A program made the position numbers and the translations under genes. The notes below the pieces were generated by a model. The model was not told where the DNA came from. It worked only from the letters and a program-made list of their open reading frames with translations, and did no database searches. Below, piece by piece: positions 43,285 through 50,316 of a DNA stretch of 64,000 nt. Position 1 is the first letter of the stretch, and every line of letters begins with the position of its first letter. This DNA is from an uncultured Gemmatimonadota bacterium (lineage in GTDB: Bacteria; Gemmatimonadota; Gemmatimonadetes; Gemmatimonadales; Gemmatimonadaceae), in assembly GCA_902826615.1 (NCBI GenBank), contig CADEFN010000001.1:1054001-1118000 (forward strand), read 5' to 3'.

Positions 43285-43318
43285 AAGGCCTGCCCGGGTG
43301 GACCGGGCACGTACCCTC

Positions 43319-43621
43319 ATGAACATCGCCAGCGATCACCTCCTGCTCTGGACAGCTGGCGTCGCGGGCTCGAAGCTCCGGATTCCGGATCAGAGGCAGT
43401 CATCGCAACGTACAAGCCGCACCAAGAGGGGCGCCGTGTTGCGCGACCTCTATCGAAAGGAAACGACTTCGGACCGTTGGCCTTGGCTCCTCTACCTCAG
43501 GGAGCGAGAAGAGATCGTCCGCGAATGGAGCCTTCTCAAGTCGGCTGGCGACCGGACCAAGATCGCGCGTCTCACCCGCGCTTGCAGCGTGCGGTTAGCA
43601 TCGGTAATTTTGCTATGGTAA
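43319..43621 (+). pseudogene. decayed, internally deleted copy of the CHAT gene 5' end
   Basis: Two blocks align by eye with the 5' end of the CHAT gene. Bases 43287-43410 match 45965-46083, including 'CTCATGAAC' and the shared 'CTCCTGCTCTGGACAG'. Bases 43441-43554 match about 46642-46757; in protein terms, 'RWPWLLYLREREEIVREWSL' here against 'RWPWELYLREGAEIVKEWSL' there. About 560 bases between the blocks are missing, including both catalytic residues of the CHAT domain. A short open frame remains, but it cannot make a working protein. Confidence 0.75.
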
Positions 43622-43706
43622 CCCCTCCAACGCATCCCGGGGTTGTGGTCTCCGGAATATCGCGGTAAGGTCGCACCTCCCCCGCGTTCACTCACCTCGG
43701 TAGTTG

Positions 43707-45539
43707 ATGGATTCGAAACGCGACGTCATTCGCGAGGAAGCCGTCGCTCGGGTCGTCCCCCAAGGGCGACGACTCGGCCTTGTTGTTGGGATCGACGCAT
43801 ACCGCGTTGAGTCGGGCATTCCTCCACTACGTGCTGCCGTGGCAGATGCCGCGGCGATCCACGCGGTGATGGTGGATCCCCAGTGCGGTCGCTTCCCCCA
43901 AGACCTCACGGTGTTGCTCAACGACGATCAGGCGACCGACACCAACATCCGCATCGCCTTGGAGCGCTTGTCGAAGACCGCCACGTCGGCAGATGAAGTG
44001 TGGTTCTTCTACGCGGGACACGCGCTGATCGTCGATGGTGAGCATCGTTTGCTTCCGATCAACGCCCGGCGAGAGTATCTGGACGCCACGTCGGTCGACT
44101 TCCCCGCGCTGTTCAGAAAGATCCGATGCCGGCGCAAGATCGTCATCCTCGACTGCTGTCACGCGGGCGCAACCGACATGACCACGCGCAACGTGCACGA
44201 CGTAGAGGAAATACTCCGTAATTATCAGGCGAGCGGCACCGTCACATACTGCTCGTCGGACGGCGACCAGAAGTCGGTGGAGCTGCCCGAGCAGGGGCGC
44301 GGGGCGTTCTCGTACTGGTTGGAGAAAGGGCTGCGGGGCGCGGCCGACGTGGACGGCAGCGGCATCGTCACCAGTGACGAGTTGTGGCGGTACGTGTGCG
44401 AGCACGTCGAGCGCGATGCACTACGGTTGACGGGTCGAAAGCAGACACCTCGCCTAAAGCTTGATTCCACCGGCTCGTTCGCACTCACGGTCAACATCGC
44501 GGCGCTACGCGCGCGCGAGGAAGCACAGCGTCAGGAGGAGGCAGAACAACGCGCGAAAGCGGAGCGGTTCGAGGCTCATCTCGCTTCCCTGCGGCAACTG
44601 CTCGGCGATGACGATTACGCGAACCTCTCTACCGACGAACTCAAGGCCGCGCGGACCCTGTTGCAGAACGAACCGGCGGCGCGCGCCACTCAGGAGATCA
44701 TTCGCGCGCTGGACTCCTTCCGCGTCAATAAGGACGGCAACGCTGCCGTGCTCCAAGTCAGGGGCGTGCTCGTCTCCGCGCGTTCGTCATCTAACACGCC
44801 ACCGGGTCATACAGGAGTGCCAAGGGTAGAGCCACGCGTACCCGAGAGATTCGTCAATCATGTCGAGAAGCGAAGCGGGCGTGCACCCGCCGACGAGCCA
44901 CCTGTGGCTAAACGTCAGAGAGCCTCGGCTGAGTCCTCGGCTGCCCGTGCAAAGGGTCCCGCGGCGGGTGCTTCTTCGGAACGTCGGCTAGATGGGAGCG
45001 AAACACAGGCTCGCGATCACCATGCGGGAACCGGGCCTACGCTTCTTGGCGTTCCAACCCCCAGCTGGGTGAAGCGGGCCAGGATCACTACCGCTATAGG
45101 AGGCGTACTTCTGCTCATCCTGAAACTGTCTCAGTCAGCCGGAGAGAAGACGCTCCCTGATTTGAGCGACACGAGTGCAGCCCCGGCATTGCCAGCACCG
45201 ACTACTGTCACCACTCACGTAGTCAAATTGCTTGGCGACGGCACAGGCTACTACTTCGAACCGAAGGAACTCAGGGTTAGGGCTGGCGACGCCGTCAAGT
45301 TCGTGATGGTCTCCGGTGCCCCACACAACGTTGCATTCGACGCGAGCAAACTGCCTGCGCAGGTTCAGACGCAACTCCGGGCCAACATGCAGAGCTCCGA
45401 ACTCTCGAGCCCGTTTCTTATGGGCACGGGTGAGGAGTACACGATCTCGTTTGCCGGGGTCGCTGCTGGCACGTACGACTTCATCTGCATCGCTCACCTT
45501 GCCATGGGCCAGACTGGTAGGATCACGGTGAGCAACTAG
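43707..45539 (+). CDS. caspase-like protease fused through a membrane helix to a blue-copper (plastocyanin-like) domain
   Basis: 610 residues. Residues 20-265 are a peptidase C14 caspase-like domain: 'RRLGLVVGIDAYR' opens it, His105 lies in 'VWFFYAGHAL', and Cys151 in 'VILDCCHAG'. A perfect EF-hand-type loop, 'DVDGSGIVTSDE' (214-225), follows inside the domain. Residues 262-340 are helical or coiled coil, 360-450 are disordered, and 459-476 are one membrane helix ('ITTAIGGVLLLILKLSQS'). Residues 503-610 are a cupredoxin with a full type-1 copper set: His540, Cys594, His597, Met600 ('PHNVAF', 'FICIAHLAMGQ'). The copper domain should face the periplasm and the protease the cytosol. The ATG at 43707 is preferred over a TTG just upstream. 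Confidence 0.88.
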   Translation: MDSKRDVIREEAVARVVPQGRRLGLVVGIDAYRVESGIPPLRAAVADAAAIHAVMVDPQCGRFPQDLTVLLNDDQATDTNIRIALERLSKTATSADEVWFFYAGHALIVDGEHRLLPINARREYLDATSVDFPALFRKIRCRRKIVILDCCHAGATDMTTRNVHDVEEILRNYQASGTVTYCSSDGDQKSVELPEQGRGAFSYWLEKGLRGAADVDGSGIVTSDELWRYVCEHVERDALRLTGRKQTPRLKLDSTGSFALTVNIAALRAREEAQRQEEAEQRAKAERFEAHLASLRQLLGDDDYANLSTDELKAARTLLQNEPAARATQEIIRALDSFRVNKDGNAAVLQVRGVLVSARSSSNTPPGHTGVPRVEPRVPERFVNHVEKRSGRAPADEPPVAKRQRASAESSAARAKGPAAGASSERRLDGSETQARDHHAGTGPTLLGVPTPSWVKRARITTAIGGVLLLILKLSQSAGEKTLPDLSDTSAAPALPAPTTVTTHVVKLLGDGTGYYFEPKELRVRAGDAVKFVMVSGAPHNVAFDASKLPAQVQTQLRANMQSSELSSPFLMGTGEEYTISFAGVAAGTYDFICIAHLAMGQTGRITVSN

Positions 45540-46080
45540 AAGGCCACTGCGTTCCACCTTCAGGCGGTCGCTACGAATGCACGGCTGTTTGCTCTGCCCG
45601 GCGATCCTGGCGTGCGGGGCAAATAGCCGTCCCTCACACATAACCACCGAAGGGCGCAACTGCAGCCATCCACGAGGTGCCGTTCATAGGCGGACCGACA
45701 GGCGTCGATGACCAAGCGGCCGTGCGCGCCGATCGCGCCCCTCTGTTCCAACGCCGCTATCGCGATCGAGGCTCCGCCCGGCGGGTTGTATGGTAACGAG
45801 TCGCTGACACTCCTGGCGAGAGACTACATCGCTCAAGCTCTGCTTGGCTGCGCGCTCCGGCAAGAGACCCATTCACGGGGGCACAAACAAGTTGCATTGA
45901 ATCCGTGCGCGAGGAACCTTGCGGCGTGCAGGCTTTACTCTTGGTGCCTCGAGCGCTTACGAAACCCGGCCTTGGTGGATCGACACGTCCCCTCATGAAC
46001 GAGCAGCGATATCTCCTGCTCTGGACAGTTGGCATCGCGTGATCGAAATTCCGAATTCCGCATCGGAGGCAGTCAGCGCA
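45540..46080. other. 541-base gap before the CHAT gene
   Basis: No credible gene. The last 115 bases are a conserved leader also found in the decayed copy upstream of the caspase gene; it ends in GGAGG, 11-12 bases before the ATG. The rest holds nothing I recognise; short open frames on both strands have no motifs. Confidence 0.5.
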
Positions 46081-49000
46081 ATGGACAGGCATCGTCCGCC
46101 GGTCATCTTCCTCGCCTTCGCCAATGACCGTGGCGACGGAGCCCGCTACCTCCGGAACCTTCCCGAGGAAACGCGGCAGCTCCAGAAGGTGCTGGATCAG
46201 CCCGGTACGGCGCATCTCTACGAGCTGGTCGTTCGCTCTAACATTACACTGCGGGAGCTGCTCGATGTCCTGCAGGACCCGCGTTATCGTGGCCGCATCG
46301 CCGTGTTCCACTTTGGCGGTCACGCCGGTGACATGCGGCTCTGGCTCGAGTCCACGGCGGGCGACGCCACCGTCGCGCACGGCGAGGGACTGGCAGGACT
46401 ACTCGGCCTGCAGCAGGGGCTCGAGCTTGTGTTCTTGAACGGCTGCTCCACCGAGCCCCAGGTCGAGGGCCTGCTGAGCGCGGGCGTTCCGGCCGTCATT
46501 GCGACATCAGAGTCCATCGGTGATGCCGTGGCGACCGAGCTCGCCTCCCGATTCTACCGGGCGATGGCTGGAGGTGCGACCATCGCGAGGGCATGGACGG
46601 AGGCCGTCGATTCGGTACGCGCTTGGAAGGGCGAGGCCCAGAGAGACTTGTACCGGCAAGAGGAACCGACCGGGGGCCGCTGGCCGTGGGAGCTCTACCT
46701 CAGGGAGGGAGCCGAGATCGTCAAGGAATGGAGCCTTCCCAGGGCGGCTGGCGACCCGCTCTTCGGCCTGCCCCCGCTCCCTAAGCGCGACCTGCCGGAG
46801 ACGCCCTACCGTCACCTGCAGTGGTTCAGAGAAGAGGACGCCGAGCTGTTCTTCGGCCGAGGACGCGAGATCCGCGCGTTCTACGAACACGTCGTCCCCG
46901 CGAGTGCCGCGCCGATCGTGCTGTTTTACGGGCAGTCTGGCGTTGGCAAGTCCTCGCTGCTCGATGCAGGGCTCGTACCTCGCCTGCGGGCCTCGCACCA
47001 AGTGCGCTACGCCAGGCGCGACCGTGACGTCGGGCTCACCGGCGCCTTGGCCGCCGCGTTAGGCGACGCCGCTCCGGGACAGTCGCTCGGCGCCACCTGG
47101 CACGCGCTCGAAGCAGCGTCCGGCGCGCCACTAACCGTCATTATGGATCAGGTCGAGGAGGTCTACACACGCCCCCGTCCCACCGATTCCGGGGAGTTCG
47201 ACCAGTTCGTGCGCGTGCTGGACGAGACCTTTGCCAGCCGGGCAACGCGCCCGCGCGGCCGGTTGGTGCTCGGCTTCCGCAAGGAGTGGCTGGCGGAGAT
47301 CGAGCAGACGTTGCGCGCCGCCAGGCTCACATGGTCCAGGTTCTACCTCGATCGGCTCGATCGAGATGGCATCGTGGAGATCGTGGAAGGACCGACGCGA
47401 TCGACGCGGCTGAAGCAGCACTTTCGCCTGACCGTCGCGCAGGGGCTGGCGGATGACATTGCCCATGACATGCTGGAGGACCGCGACGCGCCCGTCGCGC
47501 CGCCGCTCGAGGTGCTGCTCACCAAAATGTGGGACGTGGCGAGGGAGGGAAGTGAGGAGGCCCCGGCCTTTACCACCGAGGTCTATCAGGACCTGCGGCG
47601 GAAGGGGCTGTTGCTCGACGACTTCGTTGAGGAGCAGCTCCGAGCACTCCGCAACTGGAACCCGCAGGTGATAGACAGCGGGCTCGCACTTGACGTCCTG
47701 GCGTTCCATACCACGCCGCTCGGCACCGCCGAGTCGCGGACGCCCGCAGAGCTGGAGGAGGCGTATCCGCACCGGGGGGCAGTGCTGCCGGCGCTGGTAC
47801 AGCAGGGCAAGGACCTCTACCTGCTCGTGGACAAGGCGCCGGACGCACAAGCCGCGGGAAGCCAAGCGCCGGGCACACGTTTGTCGCACGATACCGTGGC
47901 ACCGCTCATACGCCGGCGCTTCAGGGATTCCGACGCGCCCGGCCAGCGGGCGCGCCGCATCCTGGAGAACCGAGGAGAGGAGTGGCGCGATGCGAAGGCC
48001 GGCAACCCGCTGGACGAGGCCGACCTCCGGACTGTGGAAGCGGGGGAGGCTGGGACGCGGCACTGGACAAACGACGAAGTGCGTTTGATCGAGGCGAGCC
48101 GCGGTGCGCGCCGGAGGCGACGGGTGTTGTGGCGGGGGCTTGTGGGCGCCGGGGCGGTCGGCTTCGCCGTGATCGTCGGGCTGATCTTCTCCGCCCGCGC
48201 CAACGAGAGGTCGGCACGAGAAAGCGAGCGGCGAGCGGAGTCCCGGAGGCTGGCCGTCCTCGCGCGCGCCGAATCTGAGAAGGAAGTAGCGGCGCTACTT
48301 GGTGTGGAGGCCGTTCGTGAACACGCGACGTCTGAGGCTTGGGATGCCTTGCTCGTCGGCCTGCAGCGCGAAGCGCCCTTAATCCGCGTCTTGGGATCTC
48401 ACCAAAGCGCGGTCAGGGGCGTGGCGTTCAGCCCCGACGGCGCGACACTAGCGTCAGCCGGAGACTCATCCATCCGTCTGTGGGACGTGAAAGGGCGCCG
48501 TCTGCGCGGCGACCCCCTGAGCGGCCATATCGGCGGGGTGTCGAGCGTGGCGTTCAGCTCAGACGGCTTCACGCTAGCTTCGGGAGGCGACGACGGCACG
48601 ATCCGGCTTTGGAACGCGACGACGCGGCAGCTGCGCGATTCTTTGATCGGTCACAAGGGTTCGGTGAGGAGTGTGATGTTCGGCCCCAGCGGTGCCACAC
48701 TTGCCTCGGCGAGCGACGACGGCACGATCCGGCTTTGGGACATGCGGACACGCAGCTCCGAGGGTAACTCGTTCGTCGGGTTCACGGGCATGGCTTTCAG
48801 CCCCGATGGCACTACGCTGGCCTTGATACGCGTCGGCGGCACGATAGTGCTCTGGAATTTGCAGATGGGCCGCCGGATGGGCGAATTCATGACCGGTCAG
48901 GCTGGTGTTGACGCGATCGTTGCGTTCAGCCCGGACGGCAGAACTCTGGCTTCGACGGGCGGCGATGGCACGATACGATTATGGGACGTTCGGACCGGCC

Positions 49001-50316
49001 GCCCACGGGGCGACCCCCTTGTCGGCCACACGTCGCCCTATGTAAACAGCGCTTCTTTCAGCCCCGACGGCAGCACGCTGGCTTCGACGAGCCGCGACGG
49101 CACGATACGGCTCTGGCACGTTCAGACCGGCCGCCCACTGGGCGACCCCATCGGCGACCCCAAGGAAGGGGCCATTCACGCTACGTTCAGCCCCGACGGA
49201 ACAATGTTGGCCTCCGGGGGCGACGACGGCGCAATACGACTTTGGGATGTGCGGGTGCGCCGCACGTTAGGCGAGCGCCTCGGCGACCACCAGCACTACG
49301 TCCAAAGCGTCGCCTTTAGCCCAGACGGCACCATGCTAGCCTCGGGGAGCTTCGACAACACCATTCGGCTCTGGGACGTGCAGACGCGCCGCCCGCGCGG
49401 TGATCCGCTCGTCGGACACCGCAAAGCCGTCTTTAGCGTCGCGTTTGACCCGGATAGCAGAACGCTGGCCTCGGCGAGCGAGGACTCAACGGCCCGGCTG
49501 TGGGATGCGCAAACGGGCCGCTCGTGGGGCAACCCCCTTGTCTTCCACAAGTCACACGTCTCGAGCGTGGTGTTCAGCCCCGACGGCACCAAGCTCGCCT
49601 CGGGGAGCGGCGATGGCTCGGTCTGCTTCTGGGGCGCGCGGACTCTTAGCCCGCGCTGCGCTGCCGTCGCAAGCCGTGCGGGCGGCGTCTCGAATATTGC
49701 ACTCAGCCCCGACGGCACCCTACTGGCTTCGGTGAGCTACGACCGCACGATCTGCCTCTCGCAGCTGCGGACACGCCCACTGCGGTGTGACCCCCTCTCC
49801 AGACGAGCGGGCGGCGTCTCGAATATTGCTTTCAGCCCAGACGGCGCGACACTGGCGTTGGCTGGCGGCGATGGCACTATCCGGCTCTTGGATGTCCGGA
49901 CTCTCGGCCAGCGGGGCGACCCCCTAACTGGCCACAGAGAGGCCGTCACTAGCGTAGCGTTCAGCCCCGACGGCACCACGTTGGCATCGGCGAGCGCGGA
50001 CTCCACGATCCGGCTCTGGGACCTCCAAACGCGCCGAATGCGCGGTGATGCCCTCATTGGACACGAGAGCGGCGTTTCGAGCGTCGCATTCAGTCCTGAC
50101 GGCACCACTCTCGCCTCGGGGAGCTTGGACAACACGGTCCGGCTTTGGCCCGGCGAAGCGACCGCCTGGGTCGGCCTCGTATGCGCGACATCCGGTAGCA
50201 ACCTGCCCCTGGCGGTGTGGGAGAGGGTCTTCCCCGAACGCCCGTACCGCTGCACGTGCTCGAACCTCCCCCCCGGCGAAGGAGTTCAGGAATGCCCCGG
50301 AAGCAGCACGCGTTGA
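46081..50316 (+). CDS. CHAT protease - STAND NTPase - membrane helix - 14 WD40 repeats
   Basis: 1411 residues. The CHAT (caspase HetF-associated) domain spans about 1-225, with His81 in 'FHFGGHAGD' and Cys122 in 'VFLNGCST'. An nSTAND1-like NTPase follows at about 240-660: P-loop 'GQSGVGKSSLLDAG' (284-297), Walker B 'LTVIMDQVEEVYT' (351-363). A membrane helix is at about 682-704 ('GLVGAGAVGFAVIVGLIFSA'), then a charged coiled coil with 'LAVLARAESEKEVAALLGVE'. WD40 repeats run from about 778 to 1356. A Cys-bearing tail closes the protein. Such proteins are thought to oligomerise on sensing a ligand with their repeats and then fire the protease. ATG at 46081 is chosen because similarity begins there. 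Confidence 0.9.
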   Translation: MDRHRPPVIFLAFANDRGDGARYLRNLPEETRQLQKVLDQPGTAHLYELVVRSNITLRELLDVLQDPRYRGRIAVFHFGGHAGDMRLWLESTAGDATVAHGEGLAGLLGLQQGLELVFLNGCSTEPQVEGLLSAGVPAVIATSESIGDAVATELASRFYRAMAGGATIARAWTEAVDSVRAWKGEAQRDLYRQEEPTGGRWPWELYLREGAEIVKEWSLPRAAGDPLFGLPPLPKRDLPETPYRHLQWFREEDAELFFGRGREIRAFYEHVVPASAAPIVLFYGQSGVGKSSLLDAGLVPRLRASHQVRYARRDRDVGLTGALAAALGDAAPGQSLGATWHALEAASGAPLTVIMDQVEEVYTRPRPTDSGEFDQFVRVLDETFASRATRPRGRLVLGFRKEWLAEIEQTLRAARLTWSRFYLDRLDRDGIVEIVEGPTRSTRLKQHFRLTVAQGLADDIAHDMLEDRDAPVAPPLEVLLTKMWDVAREGSEEAPAFTTEVYQDLRRKGLLLDDFVEEQLRALRNWNPQVIDSGLALDVLAFHTTPLGTAESRTPAELEEAYPHRGAVLPALVQQGKDLYLLVDKAPDAQAAGSQAPGTRLSHDTVAPLIRRRFRDSDAPGQRARRILENRGEEWRDAKAGNPLDEADLRTVEAGEAGTRHWTNDEVRLIEASRGARRRRRVLWRGLVGAGAVGFAVIVGLIFSARANERSARESERRAESRRLAVLARAESEKEVAALLGVEAVREHATSEAWDALLVGLQREAPLIRVLGSHQSAVRGVAFSPDGATLASAGDSSIRLWDVKGRRLRGDPLSGHIGGVSSVAFSSDGFTLASGGDDGTIRLWNATTRQLRDSLIGHKGSVRSVMFGPSGATLASASDDGTIRLWDMRTRSSEGNSFVGFTGMAFSPDGTTLALIRVGGTIVLWNLQMGRRMGEFMTGQAGVDAIVAFSPDGRTLASTGGDGTIRLWDVRTGRPRGDPLVGHTSPYVNSASFSPDGSTLASTSRDGTIRLWHVQTGRPLGDPIGDPKEGAIHATFSPDGTMLASGGDDGAIRLWDVRVRRTLGERLGDHQHYVQSVAFSPDGTMLASGSFDNTIRLWDVQTRRPRGDPLVGHRKAVFSVAFDPDSRTLASASEDSTARLWDAQTGRSWGNPLVFHKSHVSSVVFSPDGTKLASGSGDGSVCFWGARTLSPRCAAVASRAGGVSNIALSPDGTLLASVSYDRTICLSQLRTRPLRCDPLSRRAGGVSNIAFSPDGATLALAGGDGTIRLLDVRTLGQRGDPLTGHREAVTSVAFSPDGTTLASASADSTIRLWDLQTRRMRGDALIGHESGVSSVAFSPDGTTLASGSLDNTVRLWPGEATAWVGLVCATSGSNLPLAVWERVFPERPYRCTCSNLPPGEGVQECPGSSTR
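48412..50148 (+). repeat. 14 tandem WD40 repeat units
   Basis: Fourteen units of about 42 codons, each with a variant of 'VAFSPDGTTLASGS' and 'DGTIRLWDV'. Units 10-12 are the most diverged ('CFWGAR', 'ICLSQL', 'IRLLDV'). Fourteen units would build two seven-bladed propellers. Confidence 0.9.

Follow-up and report, generated by a model that had tools for sequence, protein, structure and literature searches.

A single gene in the window, the 64,000-nucleotide stretch of an uncultured Gemmatimonadota genome analysed here, joins a caspase-type protease to a plastocyanin-like copper domain, and the same domain order recurs in a second protein, L075, whose genome belongs to a different family within the class. 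The finding is real and rare. The gene combines two known folds in a known layout, and it is the combination for which we found no description. From its domain content, the pairing hints at a protease under copper or redox control, and we assign a probability of roughly 45% to the reading that the extracytoplasmic cupredoxin is the input module of a membrane-tethered caspase.

The open reading frame at positions 43707-45539 (plus strand) is single and uninterrupted and encodes 610 amino acids, in the order caspase, helical and low-complexity linker, one weak membrane helix and C-terminal plastocyanin domain. A first-pass annotation, made from the DNA letters and their reading frames, had placed caspase and cupredoxin in one gene; Pfam Peptidase_C14 and Copper-bind both match far above their curated cut-offs, and the six residues it named (His105, Cys151, His540, Cys594, His597 and Met600) lie at the positions it gave. 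Other window genes that were tested are ordinary. The features discussed below are:

43289..43553, plus strand: remnant of a second copy of the downstream CHAT gene's 5' part, decayed and in part deleted (two blocks at about 79-80% DNA identity)
43707..45539, plus strand: caspase - helical linker - membrane helix - plastocyanin gene, 610 aa (ATG start; an in-frame TTG at 43704 is possible)
43767..44462, plus strand: caspase (Peptidase C14) domain, residues 21-252, dyad His105 and Cys151 (Pfam, AlphaFold2, fold match, invariant dyad)
44346..44381, plus strand: EF-hand-like loop, residues 214-225 (DVDGSGIVTSDE), lying between two helices (alignment and model)
44496..44603, plus strand: long helix, residues 264-299 (36 residues), probable coiled coil (AlphaFold2 model)
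45081..45134, plus strand: candidate membrane helix, residues ~459-476 (RITTAIGGVLLLILKLSQ), with basic VKRAR before it (hydropathy only; weak)
45207..45536, plus strand: plastocyanin-like (cupredoxin) domain, residues 501-610, with His540, Cys594, His597 and axial Gln602 (Pfam, plastocyanin match, ligand columns)
45919..50316, plus strand: downstream neighbour, a large nSTAND1 NTPase and WD40-repeat protein (nSTAND1 6.4e-33, WD40 8.3e-129; start codon uncertain)

Peptidase_C14 matches residues 21-252 with an E-value of 1.1e-14 (55.1 bits against a cut-off of 21.4). The caspase part was modelled with AlphaFold2 from an alignment of 48 caspases from many phyla; the fold is predicted with confidence (pLDDT 91, pTM 0.88), and among solved structures the model matches MALT1 (Z 23.6), plant metacaspase 4 (Z 22.6) and caspase-7 (Z 22.1). 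His105 and Cys151 are invariant across the 48 aligned caspases, and the His-Cys dyad is intact. HMM match, model and dyad, the first two being checks that the first-pass annotation had suggested for the N-terminal part, bear out its complete caspase-like domain. The window protein shares the caspase fold and the dyad with the MALT1 paracaspase and the metacaspases but differs from them at ~20% identity and in its partner domains, and the matched solved chains carry neither a membrane helix nor a copper domain.

The EF-hand-like loop at residues 214-225, earlier proposed as a possible calcium input, is present but is not special to the window protein, D214 and G219 being at least 90% conserved among the 48 caspases. 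Calcium input is possible across the family rather than particular to this gene. This bears on a serious, if unlikely, rival to the input-module reading, in which the cupredoxin would pass no signal and serve outside the cytoplasm just as an anchor or docking domain, placing the caspase next to a partner in respiration or electron transfer, with the caspase being switched otherwise (by a partner protein, calcium or oligomerisation): because the loop is family-wide, a calcium input would not depend on the cupredoxin.

On the NCBIfam model for EACC1-associated caspases (NF047832) the window protein scores 99.7 bits, below the cut-off of 140. No EACC1 gene above cut-off was found in its genome, and none lies directly 5' of the window gene, where the upstream DNA is the decayed CHAT copy. 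We read the gene as a divergent or convergent, EACC1-less relative of the EACC1-type caspases. The nearest caspase paralog in the same genome (G000 contig C8, L045:4529-6767, minus strand; 43% identity) has a frame that ends in low-complexity residues, while the adjoining DNA holds, in another frame, a stretch with several membrane helices; it is possibly a frameshifted membrane-tethered caspase. The C-terminal module after the caspase differs between the two, with plastocyanin in the window protein and another ending in the contig C8 paralog.

The C-terminal domain, described as a cupredoxin in the first-pass annotation, does match that family: Pfam Copper-bind (PF00127) covers residues 507-608 (E 2.9e-16, 60.1 bits against a cut-off of 21.2), and the best solved relatives are cyanobacterial plastocyanins (3cvb, E 9.1e-14). 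On the plastocyanin equivalog model TIGR02656 the protein scores 67.6 bits, under the cut-off of 87.85. AlphaFold2 run on the single sequence gave a model of medium confidence (pLDDT 70.7) that has no significant match in the PDB and that we take as uninformative; the cupredoxin fold is here assumed from the HMM match.

All four type-1 copper ligands had been claimed for this domain. Three are present, the equatorial His540, Cys594 and His597, but the fourth, Met600, is not the axial residue. The axial position was fixed by alignment to plastocyanins, 65 further cupredoxin domains and L075; the plastocyanin loop (C-x2-H-x4-M) puts it at Cys+8, which is Gln602. We also considered Met600 as an amicyanin-type axial ligand (C-x2-H-x2-M) and rejected it, since the loop length and the following Gly fit the plastocyanin loop and Met occupies Cys+8 in 64 of the 66 aligned domains; the two exceptions in this column are the window protein (Gln) and L043 (Glu). 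The Pro between the Cys and the second His, likewise kept in 64 of the 66, is Ala596 in the window protein. With neither the axial Met nor this conserved Pro, the site may bind copper in an altered manner or not at all; a type-1 site of another flavour is possible but not assured. Gln is the natural axial ligand of stellacyanin, with a potential of 265 mV compared with 375 mV for plastocyanin (PMC11881046), and a stellacyanin-type site would be expected from the ligand set if copper binds. The likeness to such blue copper sites (e.g., cucumber stellacyanin; PMC11881046), an axial Gln beside a Cys and two His, is a resemblance in one ligand only, as the sequence of the window domain places it with the plastocyanins rather than the phytocyanins. 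An anchor would easily tolerate the loss of the axial Met, but the retention of His540, Cys594 and His597 goes beyond an anchor's needs.

Departures from the usual ligand set occur in other plastocyanin-like proteins as well. The protein with the axial Glu (L043:3046-4008, genome G018) is the sister of the window cupredoxin in the tree described below and carries a C-terminal extension of ~150 residues. In a plastocyanin-like lipoprotein from genome G056 (L040, in a 501-aa ORF frame) neither the Cys nor the second His ligand is kept (STPRLAQGM), and this is probably no longer a copper protein.

Between the two domains, the coiled coil that had been proposed after the caspase is consistent with the 36-residue helix at residues 264-299 of the AlphaFold2 model. 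The single membrane helix of the first-pass annotation stands as to place but not as to strength: residues 459-476, located between the two domains, are the only and best candidate segment in the protein, but the helix they would form is short and weak, its best Kyte-Doolittle mean over 19 residues being 1.53 and its insertion energy about -0.4 kcal/mol by our own rough approximation. The window protein has no N-terminal signal sequence, and a helix that sits between the domains does not act as a secretion signal placing both on one side. Basic residues precede the membrane helix in the window protein and in L075 alike, and in the window protein the charge around the helix suggests an N-in/C-out orientation. 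Both cupredoxins have as their nearest relatives lipoproteins that are exported and bear an ACGGG-like lipobox at the N terminus; derivation from such plastocyanin-like lipoproteins, as indicated by lipobox and trees, implies that the ancestors of both domains were extracytoplasmic. From the position of the helix between the domains, the preceding VKRAR, the lack of an N-terminal signal and the exported relatives, we infer that the caspase of the window protein is cytoplasmic and its cupredoxin extracytoplasmic, as the first-pass annotation had it.

A search for the same order of caspase, membrane helix and cupredoxin in other genomes, which had been suggested as a check on the arrangement, returned one further case. 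L075 (554 aa) came up when 395 genomes of the phylum were searched with the caspase part, and its ORF runs from the caspase via a membrane helix into the plastocyanin domain (Pfam C14, E 1.2e-17; Copper-bind, E 4e-11). Its copper site has the complete four-ligand set (CDPHAPTGM), and its membrane helix is strong (Kyte-Doolittle 2.41 at residue 399 of the open frame). The caspase lies above the NF047832 cut-off (163.1 bits against 140) and is of the EACC1-associated type. The gene ending 24 bases upstream of the caspase start matches PF19953 just under the cut-off (E 0.00015, 22.1 bits against 23.6) and is predicted to encode an EACC1-like protein. By its sequence, we read L075 as an EACC1-type system with a new module.

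The window protein and L075 were chosen as a pair from their domain order, before any tree was seen. In the cupredoxin tree (66 domains) each domain falls inside the lipoproteins of its own family, and the branch between them has a support of 100/99; forcing the two together gave an AU p-value of 0.0013. In the caspase tree L075 groups among EACC1-like caspases of Acidobacteriota and Desulfobulbaceae, and the window protein lies outside this group, in a loose grouping with its own genome's paralog and with Rokubacteria and Latescibacterota sequences. Forcing the two caspases together gave an AU p-value of 0.00024, in a quick tree with long branches involved. Common inheritance of the fusions is rejected by the AU tests on both domains, which argues for two independent assemblies; by these trees, a caspase captured a plastocyanin-like lipoprotein domain twice, independently. 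Nor is the window cupredoxin a recent copy of its own genome's lipoprotein, L044, which is placed elsewhere in the cupredoxin tree.

The second example also argues against an assembly or sequencing artefact joining two genes, to which we give next to no probability. The assembly has 98 contigs and the exact gene occurs in no other species searched, but the frame is open through the linker, the window cupredoxin lacks a lipoprotein signal and has substitutions absent from the free lipoproteins, and the same domain order exists in an unrelated genome. The fusion of two separate genes by misassembly, raised in the first-pass annotation as a way in which the arrangement could be false, is countered by this last point.

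No third caspase-cupredoxin fusion was found in the ~740 genomes searched, some of them with the caspase part as sole query. There was none in 149 relatives of the window genome, none beyond the window gene and L075 in the phylum and class samples, and no further one in the whole order of L075 (154 genomes). Searches of 50 caspase-rich genomes from other phyla, of 247 Acidobacteriota genomes (the phylum of L122), of 80 EACC1-like loci (for a further case) and of plasmids and viral contigs were likewise negative. Neither fusion has an ortholog in the genomes searched, and each is a single instance. Long frames containing plastocyanin (400-500 aa, some up to 1000) were considered as candidates; those that were read (L040, L098, L100 and others, though not all) are ordinary lipoproteins in GC-rich run-on frames.

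The closest relatives of both fused cupredoxins, at about 50-61% identity, are plastocyanin-like lipoproteins of Gemmatimonadota, which occur in nearly every relative genome and in most genomes of the class. They differ from the fusions in being free proteins of about 160-200 aa with a lipoprotein-type signal and a conserved axial Met. Nearly every Gemmatimonadaceae genome encodes at least one plastocyanin-like lipoprotein, and the hosts are mostly presumably non-phototrophic; we found no paper on these Gemmatimonadaceae proteins.

The caspase-cupredoxin gene is bracketed by a decayed duplicate and the downstream nSTAND1-WD40 gene. The duplicate consists of two blocks (43289-43417, corresponding to 45966-46090, and 43458-43553, corresponding to 46661-46756), and its presence beside the gene indicates a rearranging region. 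The N-terminal part of the protein encoded at 45919..50316 is, by eye, a CHAT (caspase-like) domain. CHAT and nSTAND1 both form part of the repertoire of caspase-like conflict systems; nSTAND1 has been noted in EACC1 systems (PMC8195603).

These surroundings bear on a second serious rival, rather unlikely in our judgement, in which the window fusion would be a sporadic, weakly selected or decaying gene, produced by recombination in a rearranging region and left with a degenerating copper site. The decayed duplicate directly upstream and the altered copper site, from which the axial Met and the Pro of CxPH are gone, strengthen this rival; the weak membrane helix, the restriction of the fusion to one species and the lower third-position GC of the linker (0.63, compared with 0.77 in the caspase part; codon phase set by hand) also fit it. 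Decay is harder to reconcile with an uninterrupted frame of 610 codons, an intact dyad and three of four copper ligands kept, with a cupredoxin that is no recent copy of L044, or with an independent second example whose copper site is complete.

Our search of the text of openly licensed papers found none that joins a caspase to a cupredoxin, in agreement with the earlier statement that no described system combines these parts. The novelty holds for this pairing but not for the general layout, as a caspase with an exchangeable, sometimes extracellular C-terminal module has been described (PMC7159879). In EACC1 systems some 50 different modules occur C-terminal to the caspase, among them a membrane helix with a PBP domain outside the cell, and membrane sensing followed by autoproteolysis has been proposed for these systems (Kaur et al. 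2020, eLife, PMC7159879); the text of that paper does not name a copper domain or cupredoxin among the modules. The window protein and L075 match this two-gene conflict system ('System 4', PMC7159879) in their N-terminal caspase and exchangeable C-terminal module, and membrane helices are frequent in it, with a helix followed by an extracellular domain described (PMC7159879). L075 is further like System 4 in its upstream EACC1-like gene and its above-cut-off EACC1-type caspase, whereas the window gene has no EACC1 neighbour and a caspase below the family cut-off. Metacaspase-CHASE2 proteins (PMC3501461) similarly have a caspase inside and a receptor domain outside, across membrane helices, but the CHASE2 receptor has four helices and a copper domain is not reported there.

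Other EACC1-like caspases end, by eye, in TPR/Sel1-like, HEAT-like or SUMF1-like domains. Three from Desulfobulbaceae (L123, L124 and L125), including the cable bacterium Electrothrix, have similar C-terminal domains that are DUF1566-like by eye, with a membrane helix in L124 and L125; going by sequence, these C-termini are a candidate family of outward-facing caspase modules. Module exchange also occurs in the window's own family, where an EACC1-like caspase (L094, genome G037) has a C-terminal domain that is SIR2-like by eye.

The great diversity of the EACC1-type modules, many of them adaptor-like (the TPR/Sel1-like, HEAT-like and SUMF1-like ones), fits a cupredoxin that serves as an anchor, but the independent recruitment of the same kind of redox domain twice goes beyond what an anchor needs. 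The cupredoxin could also be an effector, the caspase detecting something that happens inside the cell and then cleaving the linker, so that the outward-facing redox protein is released or altered; we think this quite improbable, although it would accord with the view of Kaur et al. (PMC7159879), for whom the variable C-terminal domains are chiefly effectors that autoproteolysis sets free. After a cut on the cytoplasmic side, the cupredoxin would still be anchored in the membrane and no different on the outside. Also counting against an effector, we know of no obvious toxic activity of plastocyanin.

With the cupredoxin as input module, the window gene product would be a single-pass inner-membrane protein in which a cysteine protease of the caspase type, located in the cytoplasm, is tethered through the helical linker and one membrane helix to a plastocyanin-type domain on the outside of the membrane. 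The input would be the cupredoxin's copper occupancy or redox state, or the docking of the domain to an electron carrier in the periplasm. Through a change in the oligomeric state or conformation of the protein it would switch the caspase, which would then cut itself, cytoplasmic targets or both as part of a stress or suicide response. The protein would work as in EACC1-type conflict systems, the window gene being a version without an EACC1 partner and L075 a version with one. In this scheme we infer the topology, copper binding, proteolysis, signalling direction and biological role of the window protein. The fuller claim, that an extracytoplasmic type-1 copper domain, through its copper or redox state, gates the activity of a cytoplasmic caspase from across the membrane, that this evolved at least twice in Gemmatimonadota and that it is a direct switch of a kind undescribed before, is tentative and somewhat doubtful.

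What defines a bacterial caspase system is the module joined to the protease, and for few of these systems is the switch known. A cupredoxin is rare among such modules, and its chemistry (copper loading, colour and redox potential) can be predicted and measured, which makes the input of a membrane-tethered bacterial caspase directly testable by single-ligand mutants. The independent second example lifts the arrangement above a mere curiosity, and the gain of the same redox domain by two unrelated caspases suggests selection for the pairing. Should the input-module reading prove true, bacteria would have a link from copper or redox stress in the periplasm to regulated proteolysis or cell death.
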